Shown: one piece after another, positions 4,420 to 28,680 of the stretch
How the letters are laid out: every line of letters starts with the position of its first letter
How positions within the stretch are numbered: the stretch's first letter is position 1
NCBI GenBank assembly: GCA_011052985.1
Contig: DRHY01000082.1
Location: 1-49,099 of the forward strand
From: Methylophaga thalassica
GTDB taxonomy: Bacteria > Pseudomonadota > Gammaproteobacteria > Nitrosococcales > Methylophagaceae
Direction of reading: 5' to 3'
Length of the DNA: 49,099 bases
Translations under genes and position numbers: made by a program
The notes under the pieces: model-generated
Told to the model about the DNA's origin: nothing
The model's input: only the letters and a program-made list of their open reading frames with translations
Databases searched by the model: none

Positions 4420-4974
4420 GTGAGACAGTACTTAGATTTATGTCAGCGCATTATTGATGAAGGCCAATGGGTCGCCAATGAGCGAACTGGCAAACGATGC
4501 CTGACCGTGATTAATGCTGATCTTGAGTACGACGTCGCCAATAATCAATTTCCTCTCATTACCACCCGCAAAAGTTACTGGAAAGCGGCTATCGCCGAAA
4601 TGCTGGGCTATATTCGTGGTTACGATAATGCCGCGCAGTTTCGTGCAATTGGTTGCCGGACCTGGGATGCGAACGCGAATGAAAATCCCGCTTGGTTAAA
4701 TAACCCACACCGCAAAGGCGACGATGATATGGGCCGTGTCTACGGAGTGCAGGGGCGGCGCTGGCAGCAGGCAGACGGGTCAACCTTAGATCAGTTGCAA
4801 AAGATTGCCGATGATTTAAAGCGTGGCATTGATGACCGAGGCGAGATCCTGACGTTTTATAATCCCGGTGAGTTTGATTTAGGTTGTCTTCGCCCATGCA
4901 TGCACACGCATACCTTTTCGGTGCTGGCGGATACGCTTTATCTGACCTCCTACCAGCGCTCATGTGATGTTCCG
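4420..4974 (+). pseudogene. thyA: Host thymidylate synthase, 5' part, interrupted by the element
   Basis: N-terminal two thirds of the chromosomal thymidylate synthase (dUMP to dTMP). It starts at GTG ([14 protein letters not shown]) and runs through the catalytic-Cys region ([12 protein letters not shown]) to SYQRSCDVP, which includes the Arg and Asp equivalent to E. coli R166 and D169. After CCG at 4972-4974 homology stops: five element-encoded residues (FLYPL) and a TGA at 4990-4992 follow. The missing part, from GLNFN onward and including the N177 equivalent, lies at 46886-47179. A product lacking that part would have no complete dUMP-binding site, so this copy should be inactive. Together the parts would give about 285 aa. 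Confidence 0.92.
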
Positions 4975-5003
4975 TTTTTATACCCCCTATGAAATGTTGC
5001 ACA
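4975..5003 (+). repeat. Left terminal inverted repeat of the element
   Basis: It begins TTTTTATACCCCCTA directly after the interrupted thyA codon and reaches TTGCACA at 4997-5003. The reverse complement of the right end reads CTTTTATAACCCCTA and also reaches TTGCACA, with a 2-3 base length difference between the two blocks. Further TGCAC motifs at about 5059 and 5102 may be extra recombinase-binding sites. Confidence 0.75.
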
Positions 5004-5108
5004 TTACATAAACAACAAAAAATTTCCTTCCGCTGCTATTTATTTTCCCTATTTACATTTGCACTTTATGCGGTTAACAATGGTGTATGTTTAAGGTGAG
5101 TGCACAAT

Positions 5109-10758: not shown

Positions 10759-11249
10759 GCGAAGCTTACGATAAAAAAAATCAGCTTGATTATGACAACA
10801 ATACACAAAAAATAAATGAAGCTTTGATTCAAATTAGAAATAATAAAGAGTTGAAGCCCACTATATCGCAACTCACAAAGTTAACTGGTATTCATCGAAA
10901 CACCATTTCGAATAGGGTGGAACCTGTTCAAGAGCTTCGCAAAATAAAACAACATCGAGAAGAAGAGGCACAGAAAAGTAAAGAAAAAAAACTGACAAAG
11001 GAAGACCCTCTGTCACTGCTGGAAAGAGAAATAAAAGCAGTAAGGATTGAAGCGCTTTATTGGTTCAACAAATTTCTTTCTATGGAAAAAGATTTTGAGC
11101 AAGTAAATAAGCGATTTGATGCAATGACAAAATCAAGAGACCACTACAAAGAGCTCTACGAGAGCGAGATCTCAAACAAACATGACCTTGAAAGCCGCAT
11201 AAAAAATTTCACCCAAATTATGAATGATTTAGATAAGGAAAAACCATGA
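10755..11249 (+). CDS. Small HTH/coiled-coil protein, TnpC-like transposition accessory
   Basis: 164 aa and strongly charged. The N-terminal 55 residues look like a helix-turn-helix ([21 protein letters not shown]). The rest is Lys/Glu-rich helix with likely coiled coil (residues about 65-160). Tn554 TnpC and the DUF6262 group are likewise small, helical and encoded after the recombinases, so an orientation or efficiency factor for transposition is the likely role; this is by analogy. It is coupled by ATGA overlaps to recombinase 3 upstream and to the truncated thyA downstream. No membrane segment or signal peptide is seen. Confidence 0.7.
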
Positions 11250-11818
11250 AGCAATATTTAGATTTGTTGCGGGACGTAAGACAAAACGGTATTCAAAAGG
11301 GTGACAGGACAGGGACAGGTACCTTATCTGTTTTTGGTCGACAAATGAGATTCGACCTAAATGAAGGCTTCCCATTAGTAACAACAAAGAAAGTTCATTT
11401 CCCCTCTATTTTCCATGAGTGGAAATGGTTTGTGTCTGGGAGCACGAATAAAAACGAACTCAAGGCTTCCATCTGGGATGAATGGGCAACAGAAGAAGGT
11501 GAACTCGGCCCTATTTATGGGAAGCAATGGACCGCCTGGCCAACAAAAGATGGTGGCACCATAAACCAAATTGATTATGTGGTGAATACTCTGAAGACTA
11601 ATCCAAATAGTCGCCGGATTTTATTTCATGGATGGAATGTTGAGTATCTTCCTGATGAAAAAGTAAGTCCTCAAGAAAACGCAAAAAACGGGAGAATGGC
11701 TCTTCCACCATGTCATCTCCTTTATCAGTTTTATGTGGCTGATAACAAGCTAAGCTTGATGATGACTATCAGATCCAATGATCTCTTTTTGGGCTGTAAT
11801 TTTCTTTATTCTATATAA
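11246..11818 (+). pseudogene. Element-borne thyA, truncated in the same active-site region
   Basis: 190 aa of an E. coli-type thymidylate synthase: [26 protein letters not shown], the catalytic Cys region [14 protein letters not shown], then [12 protein letters not shown]. Homology ends there. The expected PFNIAS block and the whole C-terminal third are missing and were not found elsewhere in the window. The tail NFLYSI-stop resembles FLYPL-stop, the tail the element gives to host thyA. Its start overlaps the TnpC-like gene (ATGA), so it was once the fifth gene of the recombinase operon. The simplest reading is that it was an earlier replacement thyA, itself cut by a related element. It should be inactive, because the N177 equivalent is absent. 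Confidence 0.85.
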
Positions 11819-12140
11819 AACACTACAGACAACGATTATTTTCTATATTTTATTGAAATGTATGGCTTTATGGCCTGGTGTTGGTTGTTTTTTTTGAGAA
11901 TAGCGCTACACGTTATAGTTGTGTCTGGCTGTGAGTTTTATCATGGAGAATTACAGGAATGTTTATCCTTATTAAGCCGAGTTTTTACAATCAAAAATCA
12001 GCGCGCCTGTTATTCTGGAATCTTATGAAGATTGCTCGGCTAATTAATAGAATTTGATAGAACAGTGTGTCTAACCCCTGGGCAAACAGCCGAAATGCTA
12101 GGGACTGAAATGAAGATTTTATACAAGTAATAGGTAAACC
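11819..12140. other. 322-base gap between truncated and complete thyA
   Basis: No gene is seen in any frame, and no residual thyA C-terminal coding could be read. It is AT-rich. The first bases after the truncated gene may be a diverged element end. TAACCCCT at 12072-12079 matches the core of the right terminal repeat read in the same orientation, but eight bases is weak evidence. The promoter and leader of the complete thyA must lie here. No clear -35/-10 pair is claimed. Confidence 0.4.
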
Positions 12141-13064
12141 ATGACGAATACACATCCTGAGTACCAATATCTAAACCTACTTGAAAAAATAGTAAGCAAC
12201 GGAAGCGAGCGAATAGATCGCACTGGAGTTGGCACAAAGGCGTTGTTTGGCGAAACACTTCGTTTCGATTTATCAGAAGGCTTCCCCGCATTCACGACTA
12301 AACGTGTCTACTGGAAAACTGCATTCAAAGAGATGCTGTGGATGCTTAAAGGTAAATCAAAATGGGGTACGGGTAACCCAAACATAAGAGACTTACTTGA
12401 GCAAAATGTCCATATCTGGAGCGAATGGCCACATAAAAAATATGTTGATGAAACAGGCGATGACATCACTCTCAAATCATTTGAGGAACGTGTTTTGACT
12501 GATGACGAGTTCGCCTCCCAGTGGGGAGACCTTGGGCCTGTATATGGTAAACAATGGAGAGCATGGAAAACCGAAGATGGTAGAGAGATTGACCAAGTTT
12601 CAGAGGTATTAGAGCAGATCAAGAACAACCCAACCTCAAGAAGAATTATTTTTGAAGGCTGGAATGTTGGCGAGCTTGATCAAATGGCCCTACCACCATG
12701 CCACAAGCACTATCAATTCTTTGTTGATCCAGTTAAAGGAACAGTAAGTGGCTCACTAGTACAACGCAGTGCTGATACCTTTTTGGGTGTGGCGTTCAAT
12801 GTTTGTAATCTGGCCTTAATCACAACGTTAATTGCAGAGCATACAGGGTATATGCCTGGTGAAATTGTTTGGTATGGCCTAGATGTTCATGTTTACTTAA
12901 ATCATTTAGATCAAGTTAGAGAACAGCTTTCTCGTGAACCAAAGGCATTTCCCAAACTTGTCATTAAATCGAAGAAAAAGTCACTTTTCGATTATACGAT
13001 TGATGATTTAGATCTGGAAGGCTATGACCCGCACCCACCTATTAAGGCACCTGTAGCGATTTAA
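12141..13064 (+). CDS. thyA: Thymidylate synthase, complete, element-borne
   Basis: 307 aa. It methylates dUMP to dTMP using 5,10-methylenetetrahydrofolate. The family landmarks are all present: IDRTGVGTKALFG, GPVYGKQWRAW, the catalytic Cys in MALPPCHKHYQFF (about residue 187), QRSADTFLGVAFN (Arg, Ser, Asp and Asn of the active site), HVYLNHLDQ, and the terminal GYDPHPPIKAPVAI. It is longer than E. coli ThyA because of an insert around residues 70-125, as in several phage and Firmicutes/Bacteroidetes enzymes. It is not an allele of the split host gene and looks horizontally acquired. As the only intact thymidylate synthase in the window, it probably covers the loss caused by insertion. Confidence 0.93.
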   Translation: MTNTHPEYQYLNLLEKIVSNGSERIDRTGVGTKALFGETLRFDLSEGFPAFTTKRVYWKTAFKEMLWMLKGKSKWGTGNPNIRDLLEQNVHIWSEWPHKKYVDETGDDITLKSFEERVLTDDEFASQWGDLGPVYGKQWRAWKTEDGREIDQVSEVLEQIKNNPTSRRIIFEGWNVGELDQMALPPCHKHYQFFVDPVKGTVSGSLVQRSADTFLGVAFNVCNLALITTLIAEHTGYMPGEIVWYGLDVHVYLNHLDQVREQLSREPKAFPKLVIKSKKKSLFDYTIDDLDLEGYDPHPPIKAPVAI

Positions 13065-13076
13065 GGAAGATGTTAA

Positions 13077-13229
13077 GTGACTCCATCAAAAAATCCAAAA
13101 ATTAAAACACCTAATGATTTGAAGGAAGTCATTCAACAGATGGCTGACGATGCCATTTTAGTTGCTACTGGAGGCCTAATTTCTAGAGGGCTGCTAGAGA
13201 AGAGACTTAAATTTGTTCATGGTTTGTAG
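13077..13229 (+). pseudogene. Unknown ORF truncated by the IS3 element
   Basis: A GTG 12 bases after the thyA stop, with a GGAAG motif ahead of it, opens about 50 codons (beginning TPSKNPKIKTPNDLKEVIQQ, ending EKRLKFVHGL). The stop TAG is supplied by the first bases of the IS, so the original gene was longer. No family is recognised. The close spacing suggests it was co-transcribed with the complete thyA. The rest of the gene is not found on the other side of the IS. Confidence 0.45.
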
Positions 13230-13232
13230 TGG

Positions 13233-14395
<1,163 letters not shown>

Positions 14396-14459
14396 TGAAC
14401 ACCTCTGTGGAGGTCATAGTACCTACTAAAATGGTGTCCGGGATCAGTAAACCACTACA

Positions 14460-14589
14460 GGATTTGGTCATACCAGCCAGAACCACAGTCAAACCCGAAG
14501 CACATTAAATTTTTATCTGGGCCCTGGTGCCTTCCTCGGTAAATGATCGGGCATTGCTGATAAATGTTTTCTGCTAGTTATCGACGCAT
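14460..14589 (-). pseudogene. Broken left copy of the 135-aa unknown gene
   Basis: Read on the minus strand from ATG at 14589, it matches the start of the intact gene at 44840 (AEKIYQRCPIIYRG, then KNLMCFGF and a SGW motif). Codon 4 is TAA, so translation stops at once, and the IS3 element removes everything after about residue 43. It follows the 100-aa gene by 3 bases, the same order and spacing as in the right-hand copy. It is doubly inactivated. Confidence 0.8.
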
Positions 14590-14592
14590 GGC

Positions 14593-14895
14593 TTAACCCT
14601 GATATTTCAGTCGAACGCGAATACCTTCATTCCTACTGAAATGGGCTAAATAGATTTGCGCCAAGGGGTACAGAGGCCCGGGTCGATCCAGAAAGAAATA
14701 TTTTGACCCCGACCATGTCTTACCCGTATTTGACTGTGGGTCATACTCAATAACCTGTGAACTAAACCTGATGTGTTGGAGTTCATAGTAATACCCAAGA
14801 AATTTTTCGACCACGTGCCCCTGATATTCGACGATCACAAAATTCCAGTCACTCATCGTCACCGGACCCGGCGGAATTTTCTGAATCATACGCAC
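14593..14895 (-). CDS. Unknown 100-aa protein, left copy
   Basis: A paralogue of the 101-aa protein at 44527. Shared stretches include IPPG.VTMS/ITMS, VIVEYQG/LVIEYQG, EKFLGY, FSSQVIEYDP/LSSQVLEYDP, and GSKYFF. No known domain, signal or membrane segment is recognised. The first possible start is GTG at 14895, in line with the ATG of the other copy; ATG at 14889 is an alternative. A run of ten G (minus strand, 14904 to 14895) abuts the start and occupies the ribosome-binding position, which could make expression slip-prone. Its partner gene downstream is broken. Confidence 0.65.
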   Translation of the reverse strand: MRMIQKIPPGPVTMSDWNFVIVEYQGHVVEKFLGYYYELQHIRFSSQVIEYDPQSNTGKTWSGSKYFFLDRPGPLYPLAQIYLAHFSRNEGIRVRLKYQG

Positions 14896-15312
14896 CCCCC
14901 CCCCATAAAAACTACCAACGTTGTCGCACAGTTCTTTTCATATTTCCATTTAATTTCATAATGTTATCTGGATACACAATTGGGCTAATTGTAAACTATT
15001 GTTTTCAGTAAGATTTACAAAAATTTGATGCGATGACTTTTTTAAAGCCAAAAAAATTTGCGCAAAGTAATTCCATGAATTGGCTTTACGCTGCAGTAGC
15101 TACTAGGGGATGAAGTTATTAATGGATGAATAGCCACCGATTTGCTAGACACTTTTTAGCCACCATTGGATTGCCCTGACTATCCTAGACAACTTTCGGC
15201 AAAAAATCTCAGTATCAGTGAGTTAATATAATAAACATCTTTTGCTGATATAGATCATTGCTTCAAATTTCCTGTTGGATGATCATGGTTCTGTATAGAC
15301 ACAGTCATAGGA
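14896..15312. promoter_or_regulatory. Gap with promoter region homologous to that of the right-hand gene pair
   Basis: No gene is seen. On the minus strand, going upstream from the 100-aa gene, the blocks TAACATTATGAAATTA, GAAAACAATAGTTTACA and GCGCAAA appear in the same order as upstream of the 44527 copy, so promoter and genes were duplicated together. GTAAACTATTGT at 14991-15002 differs by one base from the XRE-linked half-site at 46365. TTTGCGCAAA at 15057-15066 is a palindrome related to the one at 46706. The right part must hold the promoter for the DUF5676 gene on the plus strand. Confidence 0.55.
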
Positions 15313-15324
15313 GTGAAAATCAAA

Positions 15325-15567
15325 ATGAAACTTAACAGTGCAAACTTCGCTCTAGCTGCTAGCTTGACAACTGCTATTGTTTGGGTCGCGTGTAGCTTTT
15401 TAGTAGTTATGTTACCCCAAGCGACCATGATAGCTTCAGGCGATATGATCCATATGGATATTCAGAACATGATGTGGTCATTAACATTATCAGGGTTCAT
15501 TAAAGGTCTTATCCTTTGGTCTTTGTCTGTCGGACTGAGTGCTTGGATTTTTTGCGGTAATATATAA
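15325..15567 (+). CDS. DUF5676-type small membrane protein
   Basis: About 80 aa with two hydrophobic helices (LAASLTTAIVWVACSFLVVM and SGFIKGLILWSLSVGLSAWI). The layout, two helices with a short charged linker and WI/WL near the C-terminus, fits the DUF5676 membrane proteins often found in heavy-metal clusters; their function is unknown. An in-frame GTG at 15313 overlaps the GGAG that serves as ribosome-binding site for ATG 15325, so the ATG is chosen. It precedes the YHS/HMA-like gene by 37 bases and is probably co-transcribed with it. Confidence 0.7.
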   Translation: MKLNSANFALAASLTTAIVWVACSFLVVMLPQATMIASGDMIHMDIQNMMWSLTLSGFIKGLILWSLSVGLSAWIFCGNI

Positions 15568-15604
15568 TCGCTTTCAGTCATGATGTATTCGAAAAGGTAG
15601 TGAA

Positions 15605-16084
15605 ATGACACAAACAAAAAATTGTCCCGTATGCGAAATGACAGTATCTGAAGACAGCTATACAGTCACACACAGAGGTATCATTTTTTGGTTATGCTCT
15701 GAACAATGCCGAGATAGATTCAATCTAAGACCAAGCTTGTACATCGGTGATCCCAAGCAAGGTAAGTCAGCCAAACAACATGGGATAAAAGTGCATAAAA
15801 AACGCAACCTCAATCTAGAGTTGCCAAATAACAATGAGTCAGCAAGTCTGCTGGTTCAAGCCCTAAACTCTCTGATGGGAGTCACTGAAGCCAAGATAAA
15901 TCAAGGCCAACTCGAGATTGAGTACGATCTGGTTGAGGTGTCTTTAGAAGAAATAGAAGCTTTCATTAAATCTACGGGCATCCACATCGAGCAGTCATGG
16001 CTCGACAAAATCCACGATAGTTTTATCCATTACAACGAAGAAGGACAACTGGATAATTTGGGCCATCCATATAAAGACAATTAA
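15605..16084 (+). CDS. YHS-domain protein with an HMA-like C-terminal domain
   Basis: 159 aa. The N-terminus is a YHS/TRASH-type metal site: CPVCEM at residues 8-13, then WLCSEQC about 25 residues later (Cys-x2-Cys and Cys-x3-Cys). The C-terminal 80 residues (ASLLVQALNSLMGVTEAKIN, then EIEAFIKSTGIHIEQSW) have the beta-alpha-beta pattern of a heavy-metal-associated fold but no CxxC. It is soluble, with no signal peptide. It probably binds or senses copper or another soft metal in the cytoplasm; this is inferred from domain and context. It shares the C-terminal fold with the protein at 28321. Confidence 0.7.
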   Translation: MTQTKNCPVCEMTVSEDSYTVTHRGIIFWLCSEQCRDRFNLRPSLYIGDPKQGKSAKQHGIKVHKKRNLNLELPNNNESASLLVQALNSLMGVTEAKINQGQLEIEYDLVEVSLEEIEAFIKSTGIHIEQSWLDKIHDSFIHYNEEGQLDNLGHPYKDN

Positions 16085-16087
16085 CCG

Positions 16088-16780
16088 TTATCTCTGTGTT
16101 TGTTTCCAGGTTAAGTGCTCGTAAAGGCCAGTCCAGTAATAACCAAAACTAGCTGCAAAGAGAAGTTCCTCAATAGGAATACGAAGAATGAACAGTCCAC
16201 TGAGCGCGTCCAGATTCCACACACGTTCAATGTACCCAGGCGCTATGCTTTCAAGCCCAAGAACATATAGAGAATAATAAACAAGAAAACACACACTCCC
16301 CCAAAAACTCTTAATAGCGAGGTCTGGTCGACATAGGCTATTTGCTATGCCCCCTGCAATCATCGACATGATAGCTGGATAAATCGGATTCCAATCCCAA
16401 AGCATCAAAATTGGGAACAAGAGAAAAGGCGTAATCACTGCCAGTGTGTGGTGTTTATGCCGCTTTGTTAAACGAACTTGAAAAGAGATAGCTTGAAGCT
16501 TTTGGCGAGTGACAACGTTATAAGCTATCGCACCGATTCCACCGATACCGAAACAAAAAATCAAACTCTCAACATCAAACCCAGTTTCCAAAGCCAAATT
16601 GAATAAACTTGGCGGACTCCAATATTCTGGCACAAACAACGGCTCAGTAAATCCAAAGAGCATGGTAATCAAGCTTGCTTTCAACATTATGGAACGATAG
16701 GCCGGTGTAGCGATGTATACAATCAGCCACGGAATAAGAAATGCCAGAGACCAAACTAACCAAACGTACTGCACATTCAT
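16088..16780 (-). CDS. Lycopene-cyclase-domain-like membrane protein
   Basis: 230 aa, about six to seven hydrophobic helices. Two patches resemble the heterodimeric-type lycopene cyclase domain: W-PP-LFNLALETGFDVES, with FGIGGIGAI behind it, and ILRIPIEELLFAASFGYYW (the P-x-E-E-x-x-F signature). No carotenoid genes are nearby, so a cyclase reaction is doubtful. Similar proteins of unknown role turn up in metal-resistance islands. It is convergent with the YHS gene (3 bases apart) and divergent from the 16997 gene, sharing the 216-base region that contains a CopR-like box. Confidence 0.6.
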   Translation of the reverse strand: MNVQYVWLVWSLAFLIPWLIVYIATPAYRSIMLKASLITMLFGFTEPLFVPEYWSPPSLFNLALETGFDVESLIFCFGIGGIGAIAYNVVTRQKLQAISFQVRLTKRHKHHTLAVITPFLLFPILMLWDWNPIYPAIMSMIAGGIANSLCRPDLAIKSFWGSVCFLVYYSLYVLGLESIAPGYIERVWNLDALSGLFILRIPIEELLFAASFGYYWTGLYEHLTWKQTQR

Positions 16781-16880
16781 TTAGACGTCTTCCCTAAAAT
16801 TAATTACCAGCCACATATGAACTTTAATGATAATTGTTGATTAAAAAGTACAAATACTAATAGATAAAATGCTGTAATTC

Positions 16881-16895
16881 ATTACATCTTTGTCA
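16881..16895 (-). promoter_or_regulatory. Putative CopR/CusR box
   Basis: On the minus strand it reads TGACAAAGATGTAAT, 13 of 15 identical to TGACAAAATTGTAAT at 41483, next to the copRS pair, and similar to the E. coli CusR box (TGACAnnnTGTCA-type). A further CATTACA pair lies at about 16910-16928. The position between the divergent 16780 and 16997 genes suggests copper-dependent control of one or both. Confidence 0.5.
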
Positions 16896-16996
16896 CATTT
16901 GATTTAGATCATTACAAGTTCATTACATATATTCTTTTTTGTTAGAGCAGGAGTTATTATAGAATTCAAAGATGTTACCTGAAGGCGTATGAAAGG

Positions 16997-17383
16997 ATGC
17001 TCAGTTTTTCCAAACTATTTTTGCAGGTGGTTGTAGTGATGGCTTTTTTAGGTCAGCCACTAATTGCTATATCTGCGCCATGCAAAGATATGACCATGCA
17101 TGCGTCTGGCTCTCATATTTTGGAATCGAGTGACAAACGTGATTCTGAGCAAACCCATCATGTCAAACATGGTAAAGAGCTGGCTTTAGATTGCTGTGAC
17201 ACCTCAACTTGTAATACTAGTTATTGTTTGTCCCTCAGTCAGATAGCTCATACATCTTCCATCCCCTCTCAACTGTTTTCAGTCAAAATTTCAAACTACC
17301 TTCGCCCTGTTGTTGGGGTAAGCTATTTAGACTTTGATTCGAACTCATTTTTCCGTCCTCCCATTTCCCTAATCACAGGATAA
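16997..17383 (+). CDS. Small exported Cys/His-rich protein of the copper cluster
   Basis: 128 aa. A signal peptide (FSKLFLQVVVVMAFLGQPLI, then AISA) is followed by a short mature protein with His and Met residues (KDMTMHASGSH, QTHHVKHGKE) and a cluster of Cys (LDCCDTSTCNTSYC). That composition fits a periplasmic or lipid-side metal binder like the leader proteins that precede cus/cop efflux operons. No defined family is recognised. It lies upstream of the cusCBA genes on the same strand, behind a CopR-like box, and so is probably the first metal-induced gene of that operon. Confidence 0.6.
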   Translation: MLSFSKLFLQVVVVMAFLGQPLIAISAPCKDMTMHASGSHILESSDKRDSEQTHHVKHGKELALDCCDTSTCNTSYCLSLSQIAHTSSIPSQLFSVKISNYLRPVVGVSYLDFDSNSFFRPPISLITG

Positions 17384-17601
17384 ATCCGCCTGTTTAGACG
17401 ACTGTAGAGCTCAAATGGTGTCAATAATTTTGCACCATAAGCTCAAGTTTCACGGGACGAACAGCATATTTGTATTTTTGCTTGCGGTTAAATTATCCAC
17501 ATCAACACAGAGTTGAGTGTCTTCTGACTCCAAGTCTTCAAAAGACAAACAAAAATCAGTGCAGACACTACGTTCATCAAGCTCAAACCGGAACAGTACC
17601 A

Positions 17602-18966
17602 ATGCGTAATATCAAATATTTACGGTTTAAAATTTTTAGCACTGAGTCACTTAAAGCTTTTGTTTTTATGGCTCTAGCTCTCAATATTTTGCCTCTGTCA
17701 GCTCAAGAGCTGTCTCTTGAAAAAGCTATCGAGATGGCTCAGAAAAATGATCCCTGGATAGAAGGAAGTTATCTGAAAGAACAGGCCAATATTGCTCAGA
17801 GCATAGCTGCTGGTCAGTTACCTGATCCTGTCATATCACTTGGATTCGCGAATATGCCTCTGGACAGTTTCGACTTTAATCAAGAGCCAATGACACAATT
17901 TAAAGCGGGTGTCTCCCAAGTTTTTCCTCGGGGTGAAACGCTCGAGTTGCAAAGACAAAAGTTGGAAGAAATGAGTCGCCGGCACCCTTTTTTGCGTCAA
18001 GACAGATACGCGAAAGTGCAATTGACAGTTACTCAATTATGGCTCGACTTATATCAGAGCCAAGAGACTATTCGACTGATTGAAAAGGACAGATCATTGT
18101 TTGAGTATCTTGTCGAAGTGGCTGAAGTAAGTTACAGCAGTACATTTGGAAGAAGCCGCCAACAGGATCTTGTTCGAGCCCAGCTCGAGCTGACACGAAT
18201 TGAAGACCGACTAACAGTACTTGATAGAAAAAGAAGTGAGACTCAGGAAAAACTTGCCGAATGGCTTTATGGCACGGGAACAAATTGGCAGGAAGCGGGA
18301 GTTTCACAAACACTGCCGGAATTAGAATTAAAGCTTAAAACTGACCACGAAGAAACTGTCAACCTAGCTAAGTATGAAACCCCAGATTTTATTAACCATC
18401 CAATAATCAGGAGCCTAGAGCAACAAATCACGGCTTCAGAGACCAATGTTGATCTGACAAGACAAAAATACAAATCACAATGGGGAGTTAATGCAAGCTA
18501 TGGCTACAGAGATGACGCCCCCGGTGGTCAAGACCGCAGTGATTTCTTTTCATTAGGTATAAGCTTTGATTTACCCATTTTCACGGAAAAACGACAAGAC
18601 AAGGAAGTAGAAGCAGCGGTAAGCAGTAAGGAAGCGTTAAAAACTGATAAAACCCTCGCATTACGTACTATCAAGGCTCGTTTTCATCAAGCCAAAGAGA
18701 GACTAATCTGGCTAGAGAAGCGCCGCGAACTGTACAGTGAGCGCCTGTTAAAAGAGATGAATGATCAGGCTGAAGCTTCTTTAAACGCTTATACCAATGA
18801 TGATGGCGACTTTGCCGAAGTTGTTCGTGCTCGTATTGCTGAGCTCAATGCCAACATCGACTACCTGTCTATCAACATAGACCGGCTAAAAACAATTGCT
18901 GAACTGAACTATTTCTCAAGTTCATCTGAATACAAGACATCCATTAACGGGAATCAAAATGACTAG
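17602..18966 (+). CDS. cusC: CusC-like outer-membrane efflux protein (TolC family)
   Basis: About 454 aa from the chosen start. It is the outer-membrane channel of a tripartite Cu(I)/Ag(I) efflux pump. The signal peptide (hydrophobic AFVFMALALNILPLSAQE) is followed by the periplasmic alpha-barrel repeats of OEP proteins (ELSLEKAIEMAQKNDPWI, QLPDPVISLGFANMPLDSF, RLKTIAELNYFS at the end). The frame is open from 17470, but residues before MRNIKYLRF do not look like a signal, so ATG 17602 is preferred; its ribosome site is weak. Its last 8 bases overlap the start of cusB. It is shorter than the NodT-type CusC and has no lipobox. Confidence 0.85.
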   Translation: MRNIKYLRFKIFSTESLKAFVFMALALNILPLSAQELSLEKAIEMAQKNDPWIEGSYLKEQANIAQSIAAGQLPDPVISLGFANMPLDSFDFNQEPMTQFKAGVSQVFPRGETLELQRQKLEEMSRRHPFLRQDRYAKVQLTVTQLWLDLYQSQETIRLIEKDRSLFEYLVEVAEVSYSSTFGRSRQQDLVRAQLELTRIEDRLTVLDRKRSETQEKLAEWLYGTGTNWQEAGVSQTLPELELKLKTDHEETVNLAKYETPDFINHPIIRSLEQQITASETNVDLTRQKYKSQWGVNASYGYRDDAPGGQDRSDFFSLGISFDLPIFTEKRQDKEVEAAVSSKEALKTDKTLALRTIKARFHQAKERLIWLEKRRELYSERLLKEMNDQAEASLNAYTNDDGDFAEVVRARIAELNANIDYLSINIDRLKTIAELNYFSSSSEYKTSINGNQND

Positions 18967-20587
18967 TCCACACAAGACTATATTACTGATGCTGATTGCA
19001 ATAATGCTAACGGCAGTAATCACATATGGTATGACGCGGAAGTACTTTGAAGATAACACGGCTCATGATAATGACTCCGTAGAAAAGCAACCGTTATATT
19101 GGGTTGCACCTATGGACCCCAATTATCGCCGAGACCAACCGGGTAAATCACCAATGGGTATGGATCTGATTCCTGTGTATGAAGAAAACGAAACCTCCAT
19201 GGACTCGGGCCCAGGAACAATCACCATCTCTCCAGATGTTGTCAATAATATCGGGGTGAGGACTGTTAAGGCTGAATACCTGCCCATTCATTCAGAAATA
19301 AAAACGGTTGGTTATGTTCAGTACGATGAAGACAAACTAGTTCATATCCATCCACGGGTTGAGGGCTGGGTAGAAAAGCTTTATGTCAAAGCTGCCGGTG
19401 ACCCAATTAAAAGAGGACAACCACTCTATAAGCTTTACTCACCTGAACTTGTAAACGCCCAAGAAGAGCTTGTCTTGGCGCTTAATCGAGACAATGTACG
19501 CTTAATTAAAGCATCTGAAGATCGCTTGAAGGCATTACAAATAGCTGGCTCAGTTATTAACCAAATCAAACAAACACGCAAGGTCCAGCAAGCCATAACG
19601 TTCTATGCTCCGCAGACTGGGGTCGTCGATAACCTTAATGTGCGTGAGGGGTTCTATGTCAAGCCGGGCATGAATTTGATGTCGGTGGGTGACCTCAGCA
19701 CAGTCTGGGTTGAAGCTGAAATCTTTGAACGTCAGGCAGAGCTGGTCGAGGCAGGGCAAGCTGTCACCATGACTCTAGATTATATGCCCGGAAGAGAGTG
19801 GCTTGGAAAAGTCGACTATGTTTACCCCACATTAAATGACGAGACGAGAACAGTTCGAGTCCGGCTTCGCTTTGATAACGAAGATTATGTCCTCAAACCG
19901 AATATGTTTGCTCAAGTGACGATAGCGACTGCTGAAGGGGAAGAAAAACTGATGCTCCCAACTGAAGCGCTTATCCGAACAGGCGATCAGGATCGTGTTG
20001 TGCTGGCTCTTGGAGAGGGCAAGTTTAAGTCTATTGCAGTTATCGCCGGCAACATTGGTGAAAATCATGTAGAAATCATCAGTGGTCTTGAACCGGGTGA
20101 GGAAGTGGTCAGTTCTGCACAGTTTCTTCTTGACTCAGAATCCAGCAAGACTTCAGATTTCAAGCGCATGCATCATGAAGACTCCAAGCCTCAATCTGTA
20201 TGGGTTGAGGCAAAGATTGAGTCAGTTATGGCGGAACATCGAATGGTCACAGCTACCCATTCAGCAATCAGTGAGTGGGATTGGCCGGCGATGACTATGG
20301 ATTTCATTGTCAGTGAAAATATTGATCTGAGCGCTCTCTCAAAAGGTACACAACTGCACATGGAAATCACTAAATCAGGTACTGATCGCTACGAAATCAC
20401 CGAGATACATATCAAAGATGCTGATGGCACTACAAACCAAAGCTCTGCAACTCAAACTAACAGGCCAATGAGTTCGATACGTGATGATGTTCAGTCTGAC
20501 CGTATAGCGCTTAATCAGGCAACAAGTACTCAAAAGGCGGATGCTGAAGACCCTGAGCATTCATACCAGCAACACTCAGGCATGTAG
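18959..20587 (+). CDS. cusB: CusB-type periplasmic adaptor with fused CusF domain
   Basis: 542 aa. An N-terminal membrane anchor is followed by a heavy-metal-binding motif (YWVAPMDPN, KSPMGMDLIPVYEE), then the hairpin/lipoyl/beta-barrel of RND adaptors (HPRVEGWVEKLYVKAAGDPI, LMSVGDLSTVWVEAEIFERQ). After residue about 415 comes a CusF-like OB-fold (VWVEAKIESVMAEHRMVTAT, WDWPAMTMDF), in which the His, the Trp and the two Met of the Cu(I)/Ag(I) site are visible. In E. coli CusF is a separate chaperone. Here the chaperone is built into the adaptor. It overlaps cusC and is followed 12 bases later by cusA. Confidence 0.92.
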   Translation: MTSPHKTILLMLIAIMLTAVITYGMTRKYFEDNTAHDNDSVEKQPLYWVAPMDPNYRRDQPGKSPMGMDLIPVYEENETSMDSGPGTITISPDVVNNIGVRTVKAEYLPIHSEIKTVGYVQYDEDKLVHIHPRVEGWVEKLYVKAAGDPIKRGQPLYKLYSPELVNAQEELVLALNRDNVRLIKASEDRLKALQIAGSVINQIKQTRKVQQAITFYAPQTGVVDNLNVREGFYVKPGMNLMSVGDLSTVWVEAEIFERQAELVEAGQAVTMTLDYMPGREWLGKVDYVYPTLNDETRTVRVRLRFDNEDYVLKPNMFAQVTIATAEGEEKLMLPTEALIRTGDQDRVVLALGEGKFKSIAVIAGNIGENHVEIISGLEPGEEVVSSAQFLLDSESSKTSDFKRMHHEDSKPQSVWVEAKIESVMAEHRMVTATHSAISEWDWPAMTMDFIVSENIDLSALSKGTQLHMEITKSGTDRYEITEIHIKDADGTTNQSSATQTNRPMSSIRDDVQSDRIALNQATSTQKADAEDPEHSYQQHSGM

Positions 20588-20599
20588 GAGGGAACAACA

Positions 20600-23500
20600 A
20601 TGGTTGAGTCAATCATTCGCTGGTCAATCAGTAATCGCTTTTTTGTCTTGCTTGCCACTTTGATTTTGGTTGGTGTTGGGGTGTTCTCTTTAAAAAACAC
20701 ACCGGTAGACGCGATCCCTGATCTTTCTGATGTTCAAGTCATTATCAAGACTAGCTATCCGGGACAGGCTCCCCAGGTTGTTGAGGATCAGGTGACCTAC
20801 CCTCTGACCACAGCAATGTTATCAGTGCCGGGTGCGGTCACTGTAAGAGGATATTCATTTTTTGGTGACTCTTATGTCTATGTAATTTTTGATGAGGACA
20901 CAGACCTATACTGGGCGCGGAGCAGAGTATTGGAATACTTGAGTCAAGTGGCACCGTCACTACCCGAAAATGCCAGACCTCAATTGGGTCCTGATGCTAC
21001 GGGTGTTGGATGGGTTTACCTATATGCGCTCATAGACAGAACCGGTAAACAAGACATCAGCGAATTACGTTCATTGCAGGACTGGTTCCTGAAATATGAA
21101 TTACAGACAGTGCCAGGGGTATCAGAAGTTGCTGCTGTTGGCGGCATGGTCAAGCAGTATCAGGTAAATGTGAATCCTGAAAAAATTCGAGCTTTTGGTA
21201 TCCCTCTGTCACACATTCAGACAGCCATCAAGCGTGGCAATCAGGAGGTGGGTGCTTCTGTAGTAGAAATGGCCGAAGCCGAATATATGGTGAGAGCGAC
21301 CGGCTATATTCAGTCCCAAACCGACCTCGCCCAAGTTCCCTTGGGCGTCAATAGCCAGGGTACCCCCCTTACACTTGGTGATGTTGCAGAAATCAAGCTT
21401 GGTCCACAAATGCGTAGAGGTATCGCAGAATTGAATGGCCTCGGTGAAACTGTAGGTGGTGTTGTCGTCATGCGCTTTGGCGAGAATGCACAAAAAACCA
21501 TTGAGGGTGTCAAGGATAAATTGCAGGAACTTAAACAAGGTCTACCAGAAGGTGTTGAGATTGTGACGGTTTACGATCGCTCGGGACTTATTGAGCGTGC
21601 TGTAGACAACCTTTGGCACAAATTACTGGAAGAGTTTGCCGTTGTTGCACTGGTATGTATGCTCTTCTTATTCCATGTTCGGTCATCACTTGTTGCTATT
21701 GTTAGTCTTCCTGTCGGTATTCTCACTGCATTTACCGTCATGCATATCCAGGGTATCAATGCCAATATCATGTCATTGGGCGGTATCGCTATCGCCATCG
21801 GCGCCATGATCGATGGCGCTATAGTGATGATTGAAAATATGCATAAGCATATGGAAAAAACGTCTCTTACCAAGGAAAATCGATGGCAAGTAGTGGCTGA
21901 CTCTGCTTCTGAGGTTGGACCAGCATTATTCTTCAGCCTACTGATAATCACTGTCAGTTTTGTGCCGGTATTTACACTGGAAGCACAAGAGGGACGTATG
22001 TTTTCACCGCTCGCCTTCACTAAAACCTATGCGATGGCGGCATCTGCAGCGTTGGCGATTACGCTGGTTCCTGTCTTGATGGGCTACTTCATCCGAGGGA
22101 AAGTATTACCGGAACACAAAAATCCCATCAACCGGTTGTTGGTCGCCGCTTATATGCCGGTTTTGAAAATGGTTTTAGCGTTTCCCAAAACAGCCATTTT
22201 CATTGCGCTACTTGGCTTGGCTTCAACCTACTGGCCTTTACAGAAAATTGGCAGTGAGTTTATCCCTCCACTTGATGAAGGCGATCTCATGTATATGCCC
22301 ACCACTTATCCTGGCATTTCCATTGGTAAAGCCCGAGAGATTCTTCAGCAAACGGATAAGTTAATTATGACCGTACCTGAGGTGAAAACGGTATTTGGCA
22401 AGATTGGCCGAGCTGAAACAGCGACCGACCCAGCTCCATTGACCATGATCGAAACTTTCATCCAGTTAAAAGAGCGAAGTGAATGGCGTGAAGGTGTGAC
22501 AACAGAGTCATTGAAAAAAGAGCTTGATAATTTGGTTAAATTGCCCGGTCTGACCAATGCTTGGGTCATGCCGATAAAAACACGGATTGACATGTTGGCA
22601 ACGGGGATTAAAACCCCGGTGGGGATAAAAGTTGCTGGCGCAGAACTCCCTGTAATTCAGCAGATAGGCCAACAACTTGAAACAATATTGGCAGATGTGC
22701 CTGGTACCGCCTCAGTCTATTCCGAGCGTGTTGCCGGTGGGCGTTATATCAAGGTGGATATTGATCGAGAAAAAGCTTCACGCTTTGGTCTTAATATTGC
22801 CGACGTACAACAAGTCGTTGCATCTGCAATTGGCGGGGTAAATGTCACCCAAACTGTAGAGGGGCTTGAGCGTTATCCCGTGAATATAAGATACCCACAG
22901 TCCTATCGGGATTCACCAGAGCAGATGGCATTACTTCCGATTGTCACGGCTAAAGGACAAAGGATCGCTCTGGGTGATGTAGCTGACATAAAAATTGAAA
23001 GTGGCCCCCCAGCAATCAAAAGTGAAAACTCCCGTATCAACGGCTGGACATTCGTTGATATAGAAGGTGTTGATATTGGCTCTTATGTTGAAACAGCTAT
23101 GGAGTCCGTCCGTAAAGAACTGGAACTCCCTACCGGCTACTCAATCCATTGGTCAGGTCAATATGAATACATGCTTCGAGCCAAAGAAAAGCTCACTTAT
23201 GTAGTACCACTGACACTAGCGATTATAGCCATACTCCTATTCATGAATTTCAGAAACTTTACGGAAGTTGTCCTACTGATGGGTACATTGCCTTTTGCCT
23301 TGATTGGGAGTATCTGGTTGCTCTACTTGATGGGCTTTAACTTTTCTATTGCTGTTGGTGTGGGATTCATCGCACTGGCTGGGGTGGCTGTTGAAATCAG
23401 CGTGATCATGCTGGTTTACCTCAATCAAGCCTGGCGAGAAAAGCTCACTAAGAATTCAACTAATTCAATCGGGAACTCACTAACCAAGACTCAATTGATG

Positions 23501-23722
23501 CAAGCGGTTATCACTGGAGCGGGATTGCGTGTTCGTCCGGTGATGATGACTGCAGCAGCGGTCATCGCAGGCTTGATACCCATACTACTTGGTACAGGAA
23601 CTGGCTCTGAGGTAATGAGCCGAATTGCTGCTCCGATGGTAGGAGGAATGGTAAGTGCGGTCATTTTAACCTTATTAGTACTGCCCGCTTTCTATTACCT
23701 ATGGAAGCTGAAATCAAAGTAG
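20600..23722 (+). CDS. cusA: CusA-type heavy-metal RND efflux transporter
   Basis: 1040 aa, the usual length for HME-RND pumps. It takes Cu(I)/Ag(I) from the periplasm or cytoplasm and drives export by proton flow. Twelve membrane helices and two large periplasmic loops are evident. Family marks are DAIPDLSDVQVIIKT near the N-terminus, MDAI-like GAMIDGAIVMIENMHKH in helix 4 with the proton-relay Asp and Glu, and GSEFIPPLDEGDLMYMP at the start of the second porter loop. Met residues in the second half (MPIKTRIDMLATGIKTP) match the metal-relay Met positions of CusA. It is the last gene of the cusCBA operon. A 288-base gap follows before merR. Confidence 0.94.
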   Translation: MVESIIRWSISNRFFVLLATLILVGVGVFSLKNTPVDAIPDLSDVQVIIKTSYPGQAPQVVEDQVTYPLTTAMLSVPGAVTVRGYSFFGDSYVYVIFDEDTDLYWARSRVLEYLSQVAPSLPENARPQLGPDATGVGWVYLYALIDRTGKQDISELRSLQDWFLKYELQTVPGVSEVAAVGGMVKQYQVNVNPEKIRAFGIPLSHIQTAIKRGNQEVGASVVEMAEAEYMVRATGYIQSQTDLAQVPLGVNSQGTPLTLGDVAEIKLGPQMRRGIAELNGLGETVGGVVVMRFGENAQKTIEGVKDKLQELKQGLPEGVEIVTVYDRSGLIERAVDNLWHKLLEEFAVVALVCMLFLFHVRSSLVAIVSLPVGILTAFTVMHIQGINANIMSLGGIAIAIGAMIDGAIVMIENMHKHMEKTSLTKENRWQVVADSASEVGPALFFSLLIITVSFVPVFTLEAQEGRMFSPLAFTKTYAMAASAALAITLVPVLMGYFIRGKVLPEHKNPINRLLVAAYMPVLKMVLAFPKTAIFIALLGLASTYWPLQKIGSEFIPPLDEGDLMYMPTTYPGISIGKAREILQQTDKLIMTVPEVKTVFGKIGRAETATDPAPLTMIETFIQLKERSEWREGVTTESLKKELDNLVKLPGLTNAWVMPIKTRIDMLATGIKTPVGIKVAGAELPVIQQIGQQLETILADVPGTASVYSERVAGGRYIKVDIDREKASRFGLNIADVQQVVASAIGGVNVTQTVEGLERYPVNIRYPQSYRDSPEQMALLPIVTAKGQRIALGDVADIKIESGPPAIKSENSRINGWTFVDIEGVDIGSYVETAMESVRKELELPTGYSIHWSGQYEYMLRAKEKLTYVVPLTLAIIAILLFMNFRNFTEVVLLMGTLPFALIGSIWLLYLMGFNFSIAVGVGFIALAGVAVEISVIMLVYLNQAWREKLTKNSTNSIGNSLTKTQLMQAVITGAGLRVRPVMMTAAAVIAGLIPILLGTGTGSEVMSRIAAPMVGGMVSAVILTLLVLPAFYYLWKLKSK

Positions 23723-23904
23723 AAACCTATTATTCAGCTTTGTAATGCTTATACGTATATCCAATAGACGGAGCTATTTAATCCCTTCTGGGATAGACGC
23801 TCCTTGCAGAGGCACATGCCCTTCAGGGAGATAAAAATATAAGAAGTGAATAAATGATTGGTAAAGGCATTGGGTTACATTTTAAATAATTAATTACAAC
23901 CGTA

Positions 23905-23935
23905 TTGACCTATGTCAAGGACACAGGTTTAAGGT
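23905..23935 (+). promoter_or_regulatory. MerR-type promoter/operator with 19-bp spacer
   Basis: TTGACC at 23905-23910 and TAAGGT at 23930-23935 are separated by 19 bases, the over-long spacing typical of MerR-family promoters. Inside lies a dyad, ACCTATGT / ACACAGGT (one mismatch, 5-base centre). It is upstream of the merR gene on the same strand, so autoregulation with the HMA and ATPase genes is likely. Confidence 0.65.
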
Positions 23936-24010
23936 TGAACTAACCTGTTAGTCAAACCAAAGTTTAAAACGCAGCTTTGGCGTCAAAAGTCTGACAAAGG
24001 GAGTGAGCGA

Positions 24011-24436
24011 ATGCTTGTTAATGAGGTTGCGAAACTACTGAAGATAGGCCCTGATACAGTTAGGTTTTATACTCGTGCCAAGTTGATTAATCCTGAAAAA
24101 AACCGATTCAATGGCTATCGAGAATACCGCCAAAAAGATGTAAGGCGTTTGAAGTTTGTATTAACAGCCAGACAACTGGGTTTTTCGATTGATGATATTC
24201 AGCGGATATTGGCCGACGCTGACAAGAAGAGGTCACCTTGCCCTCAGGTAAGGCACTTGCTTGAAAAGCGTTTGCAAGAAACTGAAGAGCGTTTCCAGGA
24301 AATGCAGCAACTGAGAGAAAGGATGCAAAAGGCCTTGGCAGTATGGCAGCGAATGCCGGATATGGAGCCCACAGGCGAGATGATTTGCCATTTGATAGAA
24401 GAATTTACGATCCCATTAAAACTGGAAGAAAAATGA
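24011..24436 (+). CDS. MerR-family metal-responsive regulator
   Basis: 141 aa. The N-terminal MerR winged helix (EVAKLLKIGPDTVRFYTRAK, FNGYREYRQKDVRRLKFVLT) is followed by the dimerisation coiled coil. Possible metal-binding Cys are in RSPCPQVRHLL (about residue 77) and EMICHLIEEF near the C-terminus. The two-Cys pattern differs from the C-x7-C loop of CueR, so the metal cannot be named from sequence; the genes it precedes point to Cu(I)/Ag(I). The MerR-type promoter lies 76 bases upstream. Its stop overlaps the HMA gene start (ATGA), so the regulator, HMA protein and ATPase form one operon. Confidence 0.88.
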   Translation: MLVNEVAKLLKIGPDTVRFYTRAKLINPEKNRFNGYREYRQKDVRRLKFVLTARQLGFSIDDIQRILADADKKRSPCPQVRHLLEKRLQETEERFQEMQQLRERMQKALAVWQRMPDMEPTGEMICHLIEEFTIPLKLEEK

Positions 24437-24750
24437 GTATAAAACATTTAACAGTTCAAACTGGAACAGCCAAGCTAGGTTGCTGTTGTGCCAAAAAAAC
24501 CTCCACTACAGCCAGTGTAGCTATTAAGTCCGTTGTCAGTGAATCTCCAGTCAAGCAGTTCAAGGCTGAAGGCGCCTCATGTGGAGGCTTTGTAAAGAGT
24601 ATTGAGAATGCGCTTAGGGCCGTGACTGGCTTTAGCGATGTCAGTATGGATCTGGCCAGTCGTGTCTTATCAGTGGCGAGAACAGTACAAACTGACGAAT
24701 CGATTGAGACACTCGAAAATGTGGGATACCCAGCCACTGCTGTCAACTAA
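24433..24750 (+). CDS. HMA-domain protein with an altered metal site
   Basis: 105 aa. The C-terminal 65 residues form a heavy-metal-associated fold ([20 protein letters not shown], then [11 protein letters not shown] and [10 protein letters not shown]). The usual GMxCxxC loop reads GASCGGF, so the second Cys is Phe. An N-terminal LGCCCAKK adds three Cys that could complete the site. It may pass copper to the ATPase next to it. Start ATG 24433 overlaps the merR stop; an earlier in-frame start at 24343 lies inside merR and is rejected. The ATPase begins 14 bases after its stop. Confidence 0.8.
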
Positions 24751-24764
24751 GTCCGGAGTTAGCC

Positions 24765-27212
24765 ATGGATATTGAGAATACAGAATCGTCAAATAAGCAC
24801 AGCCAGCAAGGTGCAGAAAAAAATACTATCTACGTATGTCCAATGCACCCAGAAGTGAGGTCCGAGCAACCAGGTGACTGCCCGAAATGCGGCATGCACC
24901 TTGTGCCAGAAGGTGAACTCAAATCTCATAATGAAGACGTCCACCATGCTGAATCAAAAAGCGATGGCGAAGCGGGCTGTTGTGCTAGTCATGGCGGTTC
25001 TTCCCACGCGCACCATGAACATAGCTCGCCCAACAAAAGCAAAAGTATGGCAGGTAGTAAATACGATAGCGTTCCTGAGGGCTGGAGCGGATCTGTCTAC
25101 ACCTGTCCAATGCATCCGGAAGTTCGCCAGACAGAACCGGGCTCATGTCCATTGTGCGGCATGGGACTAGAGCTAGAATCAGCTGCGATGGCTGGAGATG
25201 AGCCTAACCCCGAACTAGTGGACTTTAGCAGACGTTTCTGGGTTGGGGCAGCACTGACGATTCCTTTACTGATCCTGACAATGAGTCCATTTATAGGGAT
25301 TACGCAAATTCGTGAATTTTTAGGTGAGACGACATCGCTCTGGCTTGAAGCGGTGCTCGCTACGCCTGTCATTCTTTGGTCAGGGTGGCCCTTCTTCGTA
25401 CGCGGCTGGAACTCGTTCCGCACCATGAACCTCAACATGTTTTCACTAATCGGCATGGGGGTTTCGGCGGCCTATCTCTTCTCAATGATCGCGATAATTG
25501 CACCAAGTATCTTCCCTCCTGGCTTTCGTGATCCGGAAACCGGTCATGTCGGTGTGTATTTTGAGGCAGCAGCAGTCATTGTCACATTAGTCCTGCTTGG
25601 CCAAGTTATGGAGCTACGTGCCCGAGAAGGCACGGGTAAGGCCATACGTGCACTGCTTGATCTTGCCGCAAAGACAGCCCGAGTGATACGTCCGGATGGC
25701 AGTGAGGAAGAAGTTCCGCTTGAAGATGTGCAGGTTGGTGATCGGCTTCGGGTAAGACCCGGCGATAAGGTACCCGTTGATGGTGTAGTGGTCGATGGAC
25801 GCTCTTCAGTTGACGAAAGCATGATTTCAGGTGAACCCGTCCCCGTGGAAAAGACTGAGGGAGATAAGCTGACAGGGGCGACAATCAATGGAACAGGTAG
25901 TCTGGTTATGGAAGCAACGCGTGTCGGTTCTGACACGATGCTCGCCCAAATCGTGGAAATGGTGGCAGCGGCACAGCGCTCACGAGCACCCATTCAGAAA
26001 TGGGCTGACATGGTTGCCGGCAAATTTGTGCCTACTGTAATCGGTGTTGCAATTGTCTCTTTTTTTGCCTGGTCTATTTGGGGGCCAGCGCCAGCCTTGT
26101 CGTATGCACTGGTATCAGCTGTGGCTGTTTTGATTATTGCTTGCCCCTGTGCTCTGGGCTTGGCTACTCCAATGTCGATCATGACGGCGACTGGACGAGG
26201 TGCACAAGCTGGTGTGTTGATTAAAAACGCTGAAGCTCTGGAGCGTTTTGAGAAAGTCGATACGCTGATCGTGGATAAGACCGGGACGTTGACGGTAGGT
26301 AAACCGAAGCTGGTTGCCGTTTTGCCTGAAGCTGGGCACGACGAGGCTGAGGTTCTCCGATTGGCGGCCTCGCTTGAACGTGGCTCAGAACACCCGCTAG
26401 CTGAGGCTATCGTTCGTGGTGCTGAGGAGCGTAACGTAGCCTTTGCTGATGCTAAAGACTTCGAGGCAATTACAGGTAAAGGTGTTAAAGGCACTGTAGG
26501 CGGTAAAGCGGTGGCGTTGGGTAATCTTGCCCTGATTACTGATATGGGATTGCAAAGCGGAGACTTGACCGCTAAGGCCAATGCGCGCCGTGATGAAGGT
26601 GAAACAGTGATGTTTATCGTGCTTGATGGCACGATTGCCGGATTGGTCAGCGTTGCTGATCCTGTCAAGGAGACCACACCCTCTGCTTTAAAGACACTAC
26701 ATGAGCTGGGACTTCATATCATTATGGCAACCGGTGATAACGAACGAACAGCCCAGGCCGTAGCGGCACGACTTGGCATCGATGAAATTCGTGCTGATGT
26801 TCTGCCTGCTGACAAGGCTCGTATTATTAGAGAATTACAGCAACAGGGACGTAAAGTGGCTATGGCGGGCGATGGTGTTAACGATGCACCAGCGCTGGCA
26901 CAGGCTGATGTTGGGATCGCGATGGGAACAGGCGCTGATGTAGCGATTGAAAGTGCAGGATTCACTCTAGTAAAAGGTGACTTGGACGGGATAGTCCGCG
27001 CACGCCGCCTTGCACATGCAACCATGCATAATATCCGTCAGAACCTCTTCTTTGCGCTGATTTACAACGCTTTAGGGGTCCCTATCGCAGCAGGCATTCT
27101 CTATCCGTTCCTTGGGATATTGATTGGGCCCATTTTTGCTGCTTTTGCCATGAGTGCTTCGTCGCTCTCTGTTGTTCTCAATTCTCTGAGGCTGCGCCGG
27201 GCACGGATCTGA
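24765..27212 (+). CDS. copA: Cu(I)/Ag(I) P1B-type ATPase with two N-terminal CPMHPE domains
   Basis: 815 aa inner-membrane exporter of monovalent copper or silver. The N-terminus has two heavy-metal-binding (HMBD) repeats, [20 protein letters not shown] (about residue 24) and [20 protein letters not shown] (about 109), with a His-rich linker ([14 protein letters not shown]). There is no CxxC HMA domain. Then come the membrane helices, the actuator SGEPVP, the metal-site CPC in [12 protein letters not shown] (about 459), phosphorylation DKTGTLT (about 504), [10 protein letters not shown], and [10 protein letters not shown]. All catalytic motifs are intact. It is related to SilP and CopF. It is third in the merR-HMA-ATPase operon. 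Confidence 0.95.
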
Positions 27213-27329
27213 ATCAGCTTGTCTCAGTGGATTCAGGTTGGATGTTTTTTAAGAATGGGTGAACACTCCTAGCGCTACGATAAGCGGAGTTTAACAAACG
27301 CTAATTTTTACTCACACGTGAGGTGCATT

Positions 27330-27605
27330 ATGGACACACAAAAGCCATCATTTTGGAAAACCCCTGCTGGTTTCGCTGCACTGGTTTTGATAGGTGTCGT
27401 TAGTTACTTTCTTTTGATGGAACATCGCCAGCATGTCTGGCAGTTTTTGCCTTACTTGATCCTATTGGCTTGCCCTTTGTTGCATCTGTTTATGCATGGT
27501 AGTCATGGAGGACATGCTGGCCATGGCCAACACGGAAGTGAACAGAATTCGAATCAACGAGAGGTCGAGGGTGACCCTCGGGAACATGAGCACCATCATC
27601 ATTAA
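27330..27605 (+). CDS. DUF2933 small membrane protein with His-rich tail
   Basis: About 91 aa. After the DTQKPSFWKTPAGFAALVLI start come two hydrophobic helices (to LILLACPLLHLFMHG) and a tail of His-Gly repeats ending EHEHHHH. This is the pattern of DUF2933 proteins, which are common in copper and silver islands; their role is unknown but the tail should bind metal. A frame-matched start at 27318 is possible, but GTGAGG ahead of ATG 27330 gives the better initiation site. It precedes the methyltransferase-like gene by 35 bases. Confidence 0.8.
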   Translation: MDTQKPSFWKTPAGFAALVLIGVVSYFLLMEHRQHVWQFLPYLILLACPLLHLFMHGSHGGHAGHGQHGSEQNSNQREVEGDPREHEHHHH

Positions 27606-27640
27606 GGCTCAGGATAAGACAACATTATAGGAGAAATAGC

Positions 27641-28267: not shown

Positions 28268-28320
28268 ATTGGTGAGGAAACGTCAACAACATAGCCTAAT
28301 GTGGAAGTGGAGATGATGAA

Positions 28321-28680
28321 ATGACTGAGCACAGGTTGGGTATTAATCCCGGATTTTTGACAAAACATCAGTTAGGACTTGTCGGGCTTGAGCAGTCCAA
28401 TAGTAAGAAGTTGCTCACTGAGATTGACGCACTATCATGGGTTGACCGTGTCTGGCTAACTGCCGAGAAACAAACGATAAAAATTTCATACGAGGCATCT
28501 CACCATAGTATCGATGAATTGATTGCAATTGTTGAAAAACATGGCGCATCAATTAAGGACAGTTGGTGGAGTCAAACTAAGCTGGGCTGGCAACGACAAA
28601 CTGACGAAAACATAAAAAATAACGCCAAACATGAGCCTCATTGCTGCAATAAGGTACTTTCGGGTAACAAAAATAGGTAG
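28321..28680 (+). CDS. HMA-like cation-binding protein without CxxC
   Basis: 119 aa. The middle part (EIDALSWVDRVWLTAEKQTI, then HHSIDELIAIVEKHGASIKD) has the ferredoxin-like spacing of a heavy-metal-associated domain, but the usual Cys pair is missing. A CC pair occurs late, in HEPHCCNKV. The WW/SW motif after the helix is like the one in the 15605 protein (IEQSWLDKI), suggesting the two share a family. No signal or membrane segment is seen. It has a GGAGATGATG leader. Function is unassigned beyond probable metal handling. Confidence 0.6.
   Translation: MTEHRLGINPGFLTKHQLGLVGLEQSNSKKLLTEIDALSWVDRVWLTAEKQTIKISYEASHHSIDELIAIVEKHGASIKDSWWSQTKLGWQRQTDENIKNNAKHEPHCCNKVLSGNKNR

Follow-up and report, generated by a model that had tools for sequence, protein, structure and literature searches.

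The analysed window, a stretch of 49,099 nucleotides from Methylophaga thalassica (assembly GCA_011052985.1, contig DRHY01000082.1), displayed a host thymidylate synthase gene, thyA, whose two parts lay on either side of inserted DNA (Table 1). The original prediction held that the insertion had destroyed this gene and that exact excision would restore it. The split bore out the first claim. The second agreed with a rejoining test, in which flanks joined across 4974/46883 gave an open 283-aa ThyA; 258 to 261 of its 283 residues were identical to those of three genus relatives with an intact gene. The locus of the 5' part was syntenic with intact thyA of genus relatives. Among relatives of the genus (L075-L084, L090-L093), species differed in the ThyA encoded at the locus syntenic to window positions 2666-4351 and 47264-48013: some had the host type of the window, others a Pseudomonas-like type that is very different. 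These two types at one locus are possibly the scar of a past replacement.

Table 1. Features of the thyA region. L006 is a GInt locus on a plasmid of Pseudomonas putida; G055 is a genome from another species of the genus.
Feature	Position	Strand	Remarks
Host thyA, 5' part	4420..4974	+	Cut after codon 185 (after QRSCDVP); PF00303 positions 1-173
GInt left end	4975..5020		TTTTTATACCCCCTA...GCACATTAC; inverted match to right end
ginA, tyrosine recombinase, 414 aa	5100..6344	+	PF00589, E 1.5e-12; 48 % identical to L006 GinA
ginB, large tyrosine recombinase, 782 aa	6344..8692	+	PF00589, E 7.5e-8; 39 % identical to L006
ginC, recombinase-fold protein, 689 aa	8689..10758	+	Weak PF00589, below cutoff
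ginD, small protein, 164 aa	10755..11249	+	Kept behind ginC in nearly all relatives
thyA1, replacement of the GInt itself, 5' fragment only	11246..11818	+	PF00303 positions 1-178
Element B left end, inside thyA1	11805..12140		CTTTATTCTATATAAAACACTACAG...; identical left end in G055
thyA2, intact thymidylate synthase of element B, 307 aa	12141..13064	+	Only complete one in the assembly
Remnant of first gene of B's recombination module (981 aa in G055), cut by IS	13077..13222	+	Matches the start of that gene
IS3-family insertion sequence	13223..14460	-	ORFs 13233-14078 and 14087-14395; IS3 assigned by sequence inspection
Metal-resistance cargo	14461..43685		Mostly common with G055 element B: 97.9 % over 14.3 kb, 98.7 % over 9.7 kb
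GInt right end	46863..46882		TTTTAGGGGTTATAAAAGC; adjoins host thyA 3' part; junction from rejoining test
Host thyA, 3' part	46883..47179	+	PF00303 positions 174-266; rejoins in frame with 4420-4974

The island interrupting host thyA was assigned to the GInt type according to its gene plan. Its ginABCD genes (5100-11249) were tightly packed, overlapping ORFs arranged in the same order as in relatives, the first three recombinase-like and the last one small; ginD matched no Pfam or NCBIfam family. A left-end operon of four genes, three of them recombinase-like and the fourth small, is also typical of published GInts (Bardaji et al. 2017, PMC5385486), which likewise carry their cargo from the ginD end, insert site-specifically into a conserved gene and include copper and other resistance genes. 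In the window the cargo began at the end of ginD, the start of thyA1 overlapping the ginD stop by 4 bp (11246/11249). The left-end motif was common to thyA-inserted relatives and to the plasmid GInt L006. The ends matched here were inverted, whereas the GInt criterion is short imperfect direct repeats of 10-17 nt.

The inserted DNA appeared to consist of two elements, with thyA replaced twice in series, a nesting supported by one junction together with G055. The GInt's own replacement, thyA1, shared 76 % identity with the complete thyA that follows ginD in L006, and thyA2 started about 320 bp beyond it. Its homology stopped at about 11793-11804, where element B starts, leaving it cut at codon ~184. 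Window positions 11791-13222 were 98 % identical to G055, in which the same end sits in native thyA, cut by element B at nearly the same codon. No gin genes were found at that locus, and its flanks, when rejoined without element B, restored a 283-aa host ThyA. Because element B, with thyA2, sits alone in native thyA of G055, it was placed as nested in thyA1 of the GInt. A reading with two elements inserted in tandem at a single att site was dropped once G055 had shown this nesting; a GInt left end inside thyA1 was also considered and dropped, the junction near 11800 being unlike GInt left ends.

In G055, element B displayed thyA2 at its left end, followed by a four-gene module encoding proteins of 981, 698, 198 and 436 aa, with PF00589 in the 698-aa protein and a weak XerC match in the 436-aa protein. 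In the window, about 10 kb of element B were missing at the IS3 copy and homology resumed at 14458, corresponding to G055 position 50594. Neither the right end of element B nor the 3' half of thyA1 was found in the window. Profiles built from two or three sequences, which provide weak evidence, yielded no match between the 981-aa protein and GinC or between the 436-aa protein and GinA. The 698-aa recombinase had weak matches only, in plasmids and class genomes. In number and kinds of genes, element B resembles SE (intA-tfp-intB-srap), whose four core genes encode a pair of tyrosine recombinases, a protein with the recombinase fold and a small auxiliary protein; the gene order of element B (981, 698, 198, 436 aa) is different, however, and the likeness is judged by gene plan. 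The SE paper makes no mention of thyA. In G055, element B ends on the right (L089, C19, 100439-104896) in what gene order and the start of the sequence suggest to be a CBASS-like set of anti-phage defence genes. Near the GInt right end of the window, genes at 44418-46568 matched element-B genes of G055 at 67-73 %, in reverse orientation, and may belong to either element.

The presence of an intact 307-aa thyA in the inserted DNA, on which the original prediction was founded, was confirmed. The ORF of thyA2 starts with ATG, is free of internal stops and covers PF00303 profile positions 2-266 of 266 (E 1.6e-102); it scored 355 bits against NCBIfam thym_sym TIGR03284 (cutoff 108). Aligned to solved thymidylate synthases, it keeps the DRTG, PPCH, QRSAD, FN and DVHVYLNH motifs. 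Its description as a type unrelated to the host gene agreed with identities of ~29 % to the host halves and 40 % to the thyA1 fragment. What needed amending was the view of a single element with its own thyA: the replacement does come with the inserted DNA, but the intact copy belongs to the second, nested element. No sigma-70-like promoter was found upstream of thyA2. The thyA2 protein was 99.3 % identical to the G055 copy; at the DNA level, codons 1-282 were identical while nine codons differed between 283 and 306 (12989-13064), as if a recombination patch began there.

The rest of the genome was searched for thyX or another intact thyA, either of which would have refuted the prediction, and none was found in the draft assembly (2.86 Mb, 353 contigs, 93 % complete). 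Of the four PF00303 pieces that it contained, only thyA2 was complete. The thyA2 gene is probably expressed and sufficient.

Relatives were collected by scanning genome contigs with a GinC alignment, which yielded 52 loci. GinC searches of 63 genomes of the order and 369 of the class recovered the window only, and no GinC relatives were found in viral contigs. Hosts of thyA-inserted GInts included Pseudomonas, Stutzerimonas, Acinetobacter, Psychrobacter, Idiomarina, Shewanella, Marinobacter and Aeromonas, and the host gene was cut at the same codon throughout. The prediction had proposed that other islands inserted in thyA be searched for a synthase among their cargo. None lacked one: whole-genome searches found one intact thyA together with 5' and 3' fragments in all 38 thyA-GInt genomes, and ThyX in none of them (0/38). 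The intact gene adjoined ginD in 36 of the 36 loci long enough to tell, and lay between the host halves in all genomes with both halves on one contig (23/23), the inserts of which measured 8.9 to 52.9 kb (median 30.5 kb). Since any living prototroph needs to retain a synthase at some place in its genome, finding one proves little by itself; what counts is its constant position in the island. With a draft genome in 353 contigs, two unrelated thyA regions might have been joined in assembly; this explanation was judged extremely improbable, given that the architecture recurs in dozens of assemblies, some labelled complete chromosomes, and that element B occurs separately in G055.

The replacements were of several kinds. 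In Pseudomonas, Idiomarina and Aeromonas they were of one type, on the plus strand. Acinetobacter and Psychrobacter had a type resembling the window's host gene, on the minus strand; Shewanella and Marinobacter had it on the plus strand. With at least three thyA types in both orientations, they must have been acquired or swapped repeatedly. Median dN/dS values within three replacement groups were 0.023, 0.029 and 0.039, low values that point to their use as proteins. A possible self-immunity through a recoded att site (PYN in Pseudomonas-type replacements, PFN in most ThyA) was considered and dropped, as intact thyA of that type in genus relatives also displayed PYN. Pseudomonas helleri (L028) carried two thyA 5' fragments in tandem upstream of ginA (4933-5517 and 5639-6202), perhaps from an older insertion round. 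Inside the island of Pseudomonas tremae (L023), a further scrap of thyA 3' sequence at 13872-14036 covered residues 227-277 and shared 80 % identity with the island type; it was perhaps left over from an earlier replacement.

Other relatives were inserted in bcp or nadE, target names which were read from the sequences and, for nadE, also rested on Pfam PF02540. An interrupted bcp was found in seven relatives from Pseudoalteromonas, Rheinheimera, Alteromonas and Alishewanella. All seven genomes (7/7) displayed the broken 5' half of bcp. Each also had an intact bcp, belonging to one related family and matching the query at 83-100 % identity, which was located directly behind ginD in three loci and deeper in the island in others. 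The nadE gene was interrupted in five Pseudomonas relatives, in which an intact nadE-type frame of 552-581 codons lay ~1.2-1.3 kb from the 3' host fragment. No thyA was found inside bcp- or nadE-GInts, and their genomes had a single thyA, except G450, which also has a thyA-GInt. In this genome (Pseudomonas ceruminis), the thyA-GInt and the nadE-GInt occur together as loci L034 and L047. In the GinC tree, the bcp, nadE and minus-strand thyA groups each formed one clade and the nadE group was nested within the thyA-GInts (100/99); long branches made it unsure where the rows of the window, Idiomarina, Shewanella and bcp belong. The replacement strategy that had been proposed for thyA is well supported for that gene and extends to bcp islands, which carry bcp, and nadE islands, which carry nadE, with the qualification that the intact copy of the window belongs to nested element B.

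This joint switch of cargo and target is a stronger argument than the contrast between 36/36 thyA-GInts and 0/12 others, which is not phylogenetically independent and comes from survivor-biased data. It bears on the idea that thyA is carried for another benefit regardless of target, such as more dTMP for DNA synthesis or antifolate tolerance. Many phages possess thyA, and L006 (11190-18331) is a thyA-carrying GInt inserted in a gene other than thyA, on a plasmid where its synthase is not needed, which also speaks against the replacement reading. The relatives with other targets, however, lack thyA and instead carry a copy of their own target gene, and such a benefit was considered very unlikely as the explanation. 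The gin genes of L006 were identical to those of a chromosomal thyA-inserted copy.

The favoured interpretation is target-matched gene replacement by a site-specific island, to which we attribute a probability of roughly 0.85. By means of ginABCD, the GInt would recombine at a single codon of the conserved host thyA core, splitting the gene. The cell would survive on a complete, divergent thymidylate synthase supplied by the island, at first thyA1 directly behind ginD. Later, the differently built recombinase element B, using nearly the same thyA codon, would have entered thyA1 and supplied thyA2. Element B would then have lost its recombination module, with IS3 in its place, as well as its right end, leaving thyA2 as the sole intact synthase. 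Insertion without a replacement would presumably be lethal in the absence of thymidine, and losing the island would carry a cost unless excision were exact.

An addiction-like stabilisation, also put forward in the original prediction, would go further: the island would hold the sole copy of an essential activity, selected because island loss is punished. Across the thyA group the replacement was never absent and was the sole synthase in every case. For the insertion to be survivable at all, a universal replacement is already required, however, and the data, which do not separate the two, fit equally a replacement that merely makes the insertion survivable. A killing effect would also be weakened by the bcp target, a gene which to our knowledge is not generally essential. 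Stabilisation was regarded as possible but rather doubtful. That the cargo is permissive only, making insertion survivable while the island excises exactly and has no addiction-like effect, was given about even chances. The flanks rejoin to a full-length host ThyA in both the window and G055, host thyA halves were mostly open and without stops, and GInts excised as circles in published tests (PMC5385486). Circular excision dependent on all four gin genes is one of the GInt criteria. On the other hand, several GInts had no detectable empty site (PMC5385486), and if the island were deleted inexactly, the only synthase found would still be lost with it.

Both GInts and a target-replacing island for tmk in P. 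putida were already known. The GInt paper notes a duplicated ribonucleotide reductase gene with islands at its end and makes no mention of thyA or thymidylate synthase; it suggests that targets are not fully inactivated, unlike the mid-gene split and full replacement described here (PMC5385486). The 65-kb island in tmk of Pseudomonas putida KT2440 carries dNMPK, which genome engineering showed to be the needed gene (Wirth et al. 2023, PMC10653934). As in the window, a gene of nucleotide synthesis is split and an island gene supplies the activity beside conserved recombinase genes; in contrast, the target is tmk, the kinase is non-homologous, the recombinase genes are others and it was reported as a first case, not as a rule (PMC10653934). 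In the window and 38 genomes, plus the bcp and nadE groups, the target was cut mid-gene and a homologous activity is predicted to be encoded inside. Replacement of thyA, bcp or nadE by GInts, or serial replacement, was not found reported in the open-licence literature.

Some phages and islands integrate at the end of a gene and make the target whole again with a terminal fragment that they bring. Element-borne DNA there also makes insertion in a conserved gene tolerable, but it rebuilds the host gene at the att site, whereas in the present case the host gene is left broken and the element contributes an entire, divergent gene.

As a general proposition, four-gene tyrosine-recombinase islands may carry a complete, divergent copy of the conserved gene that they cut, cargo and target changing together; we regard this as a statement with even odds. 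If true, such islands would be natural vehicles by which a foreign version takes over the locus of a core gene, and two ThyA types at the genus locus would be expected where an island's replacement outlived the island. Target-matched replacement itself would explain how site-specific islands can land, without death of the host, in genes that are well conserved and often indispensable and that provide the most dependable addresses from species to species. The single published case (tmk, P. putida) would become a testable rule with three further targets, and the window would add an example of a replacement gene itself overtaken by a second element. In annotation, it should be borne in mind that an island copy may stand in for a thyA, bcp or nadE that looks broken. 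The islands would also provide a concrete path for the exchange, in situ, of core genes for foreign ones.
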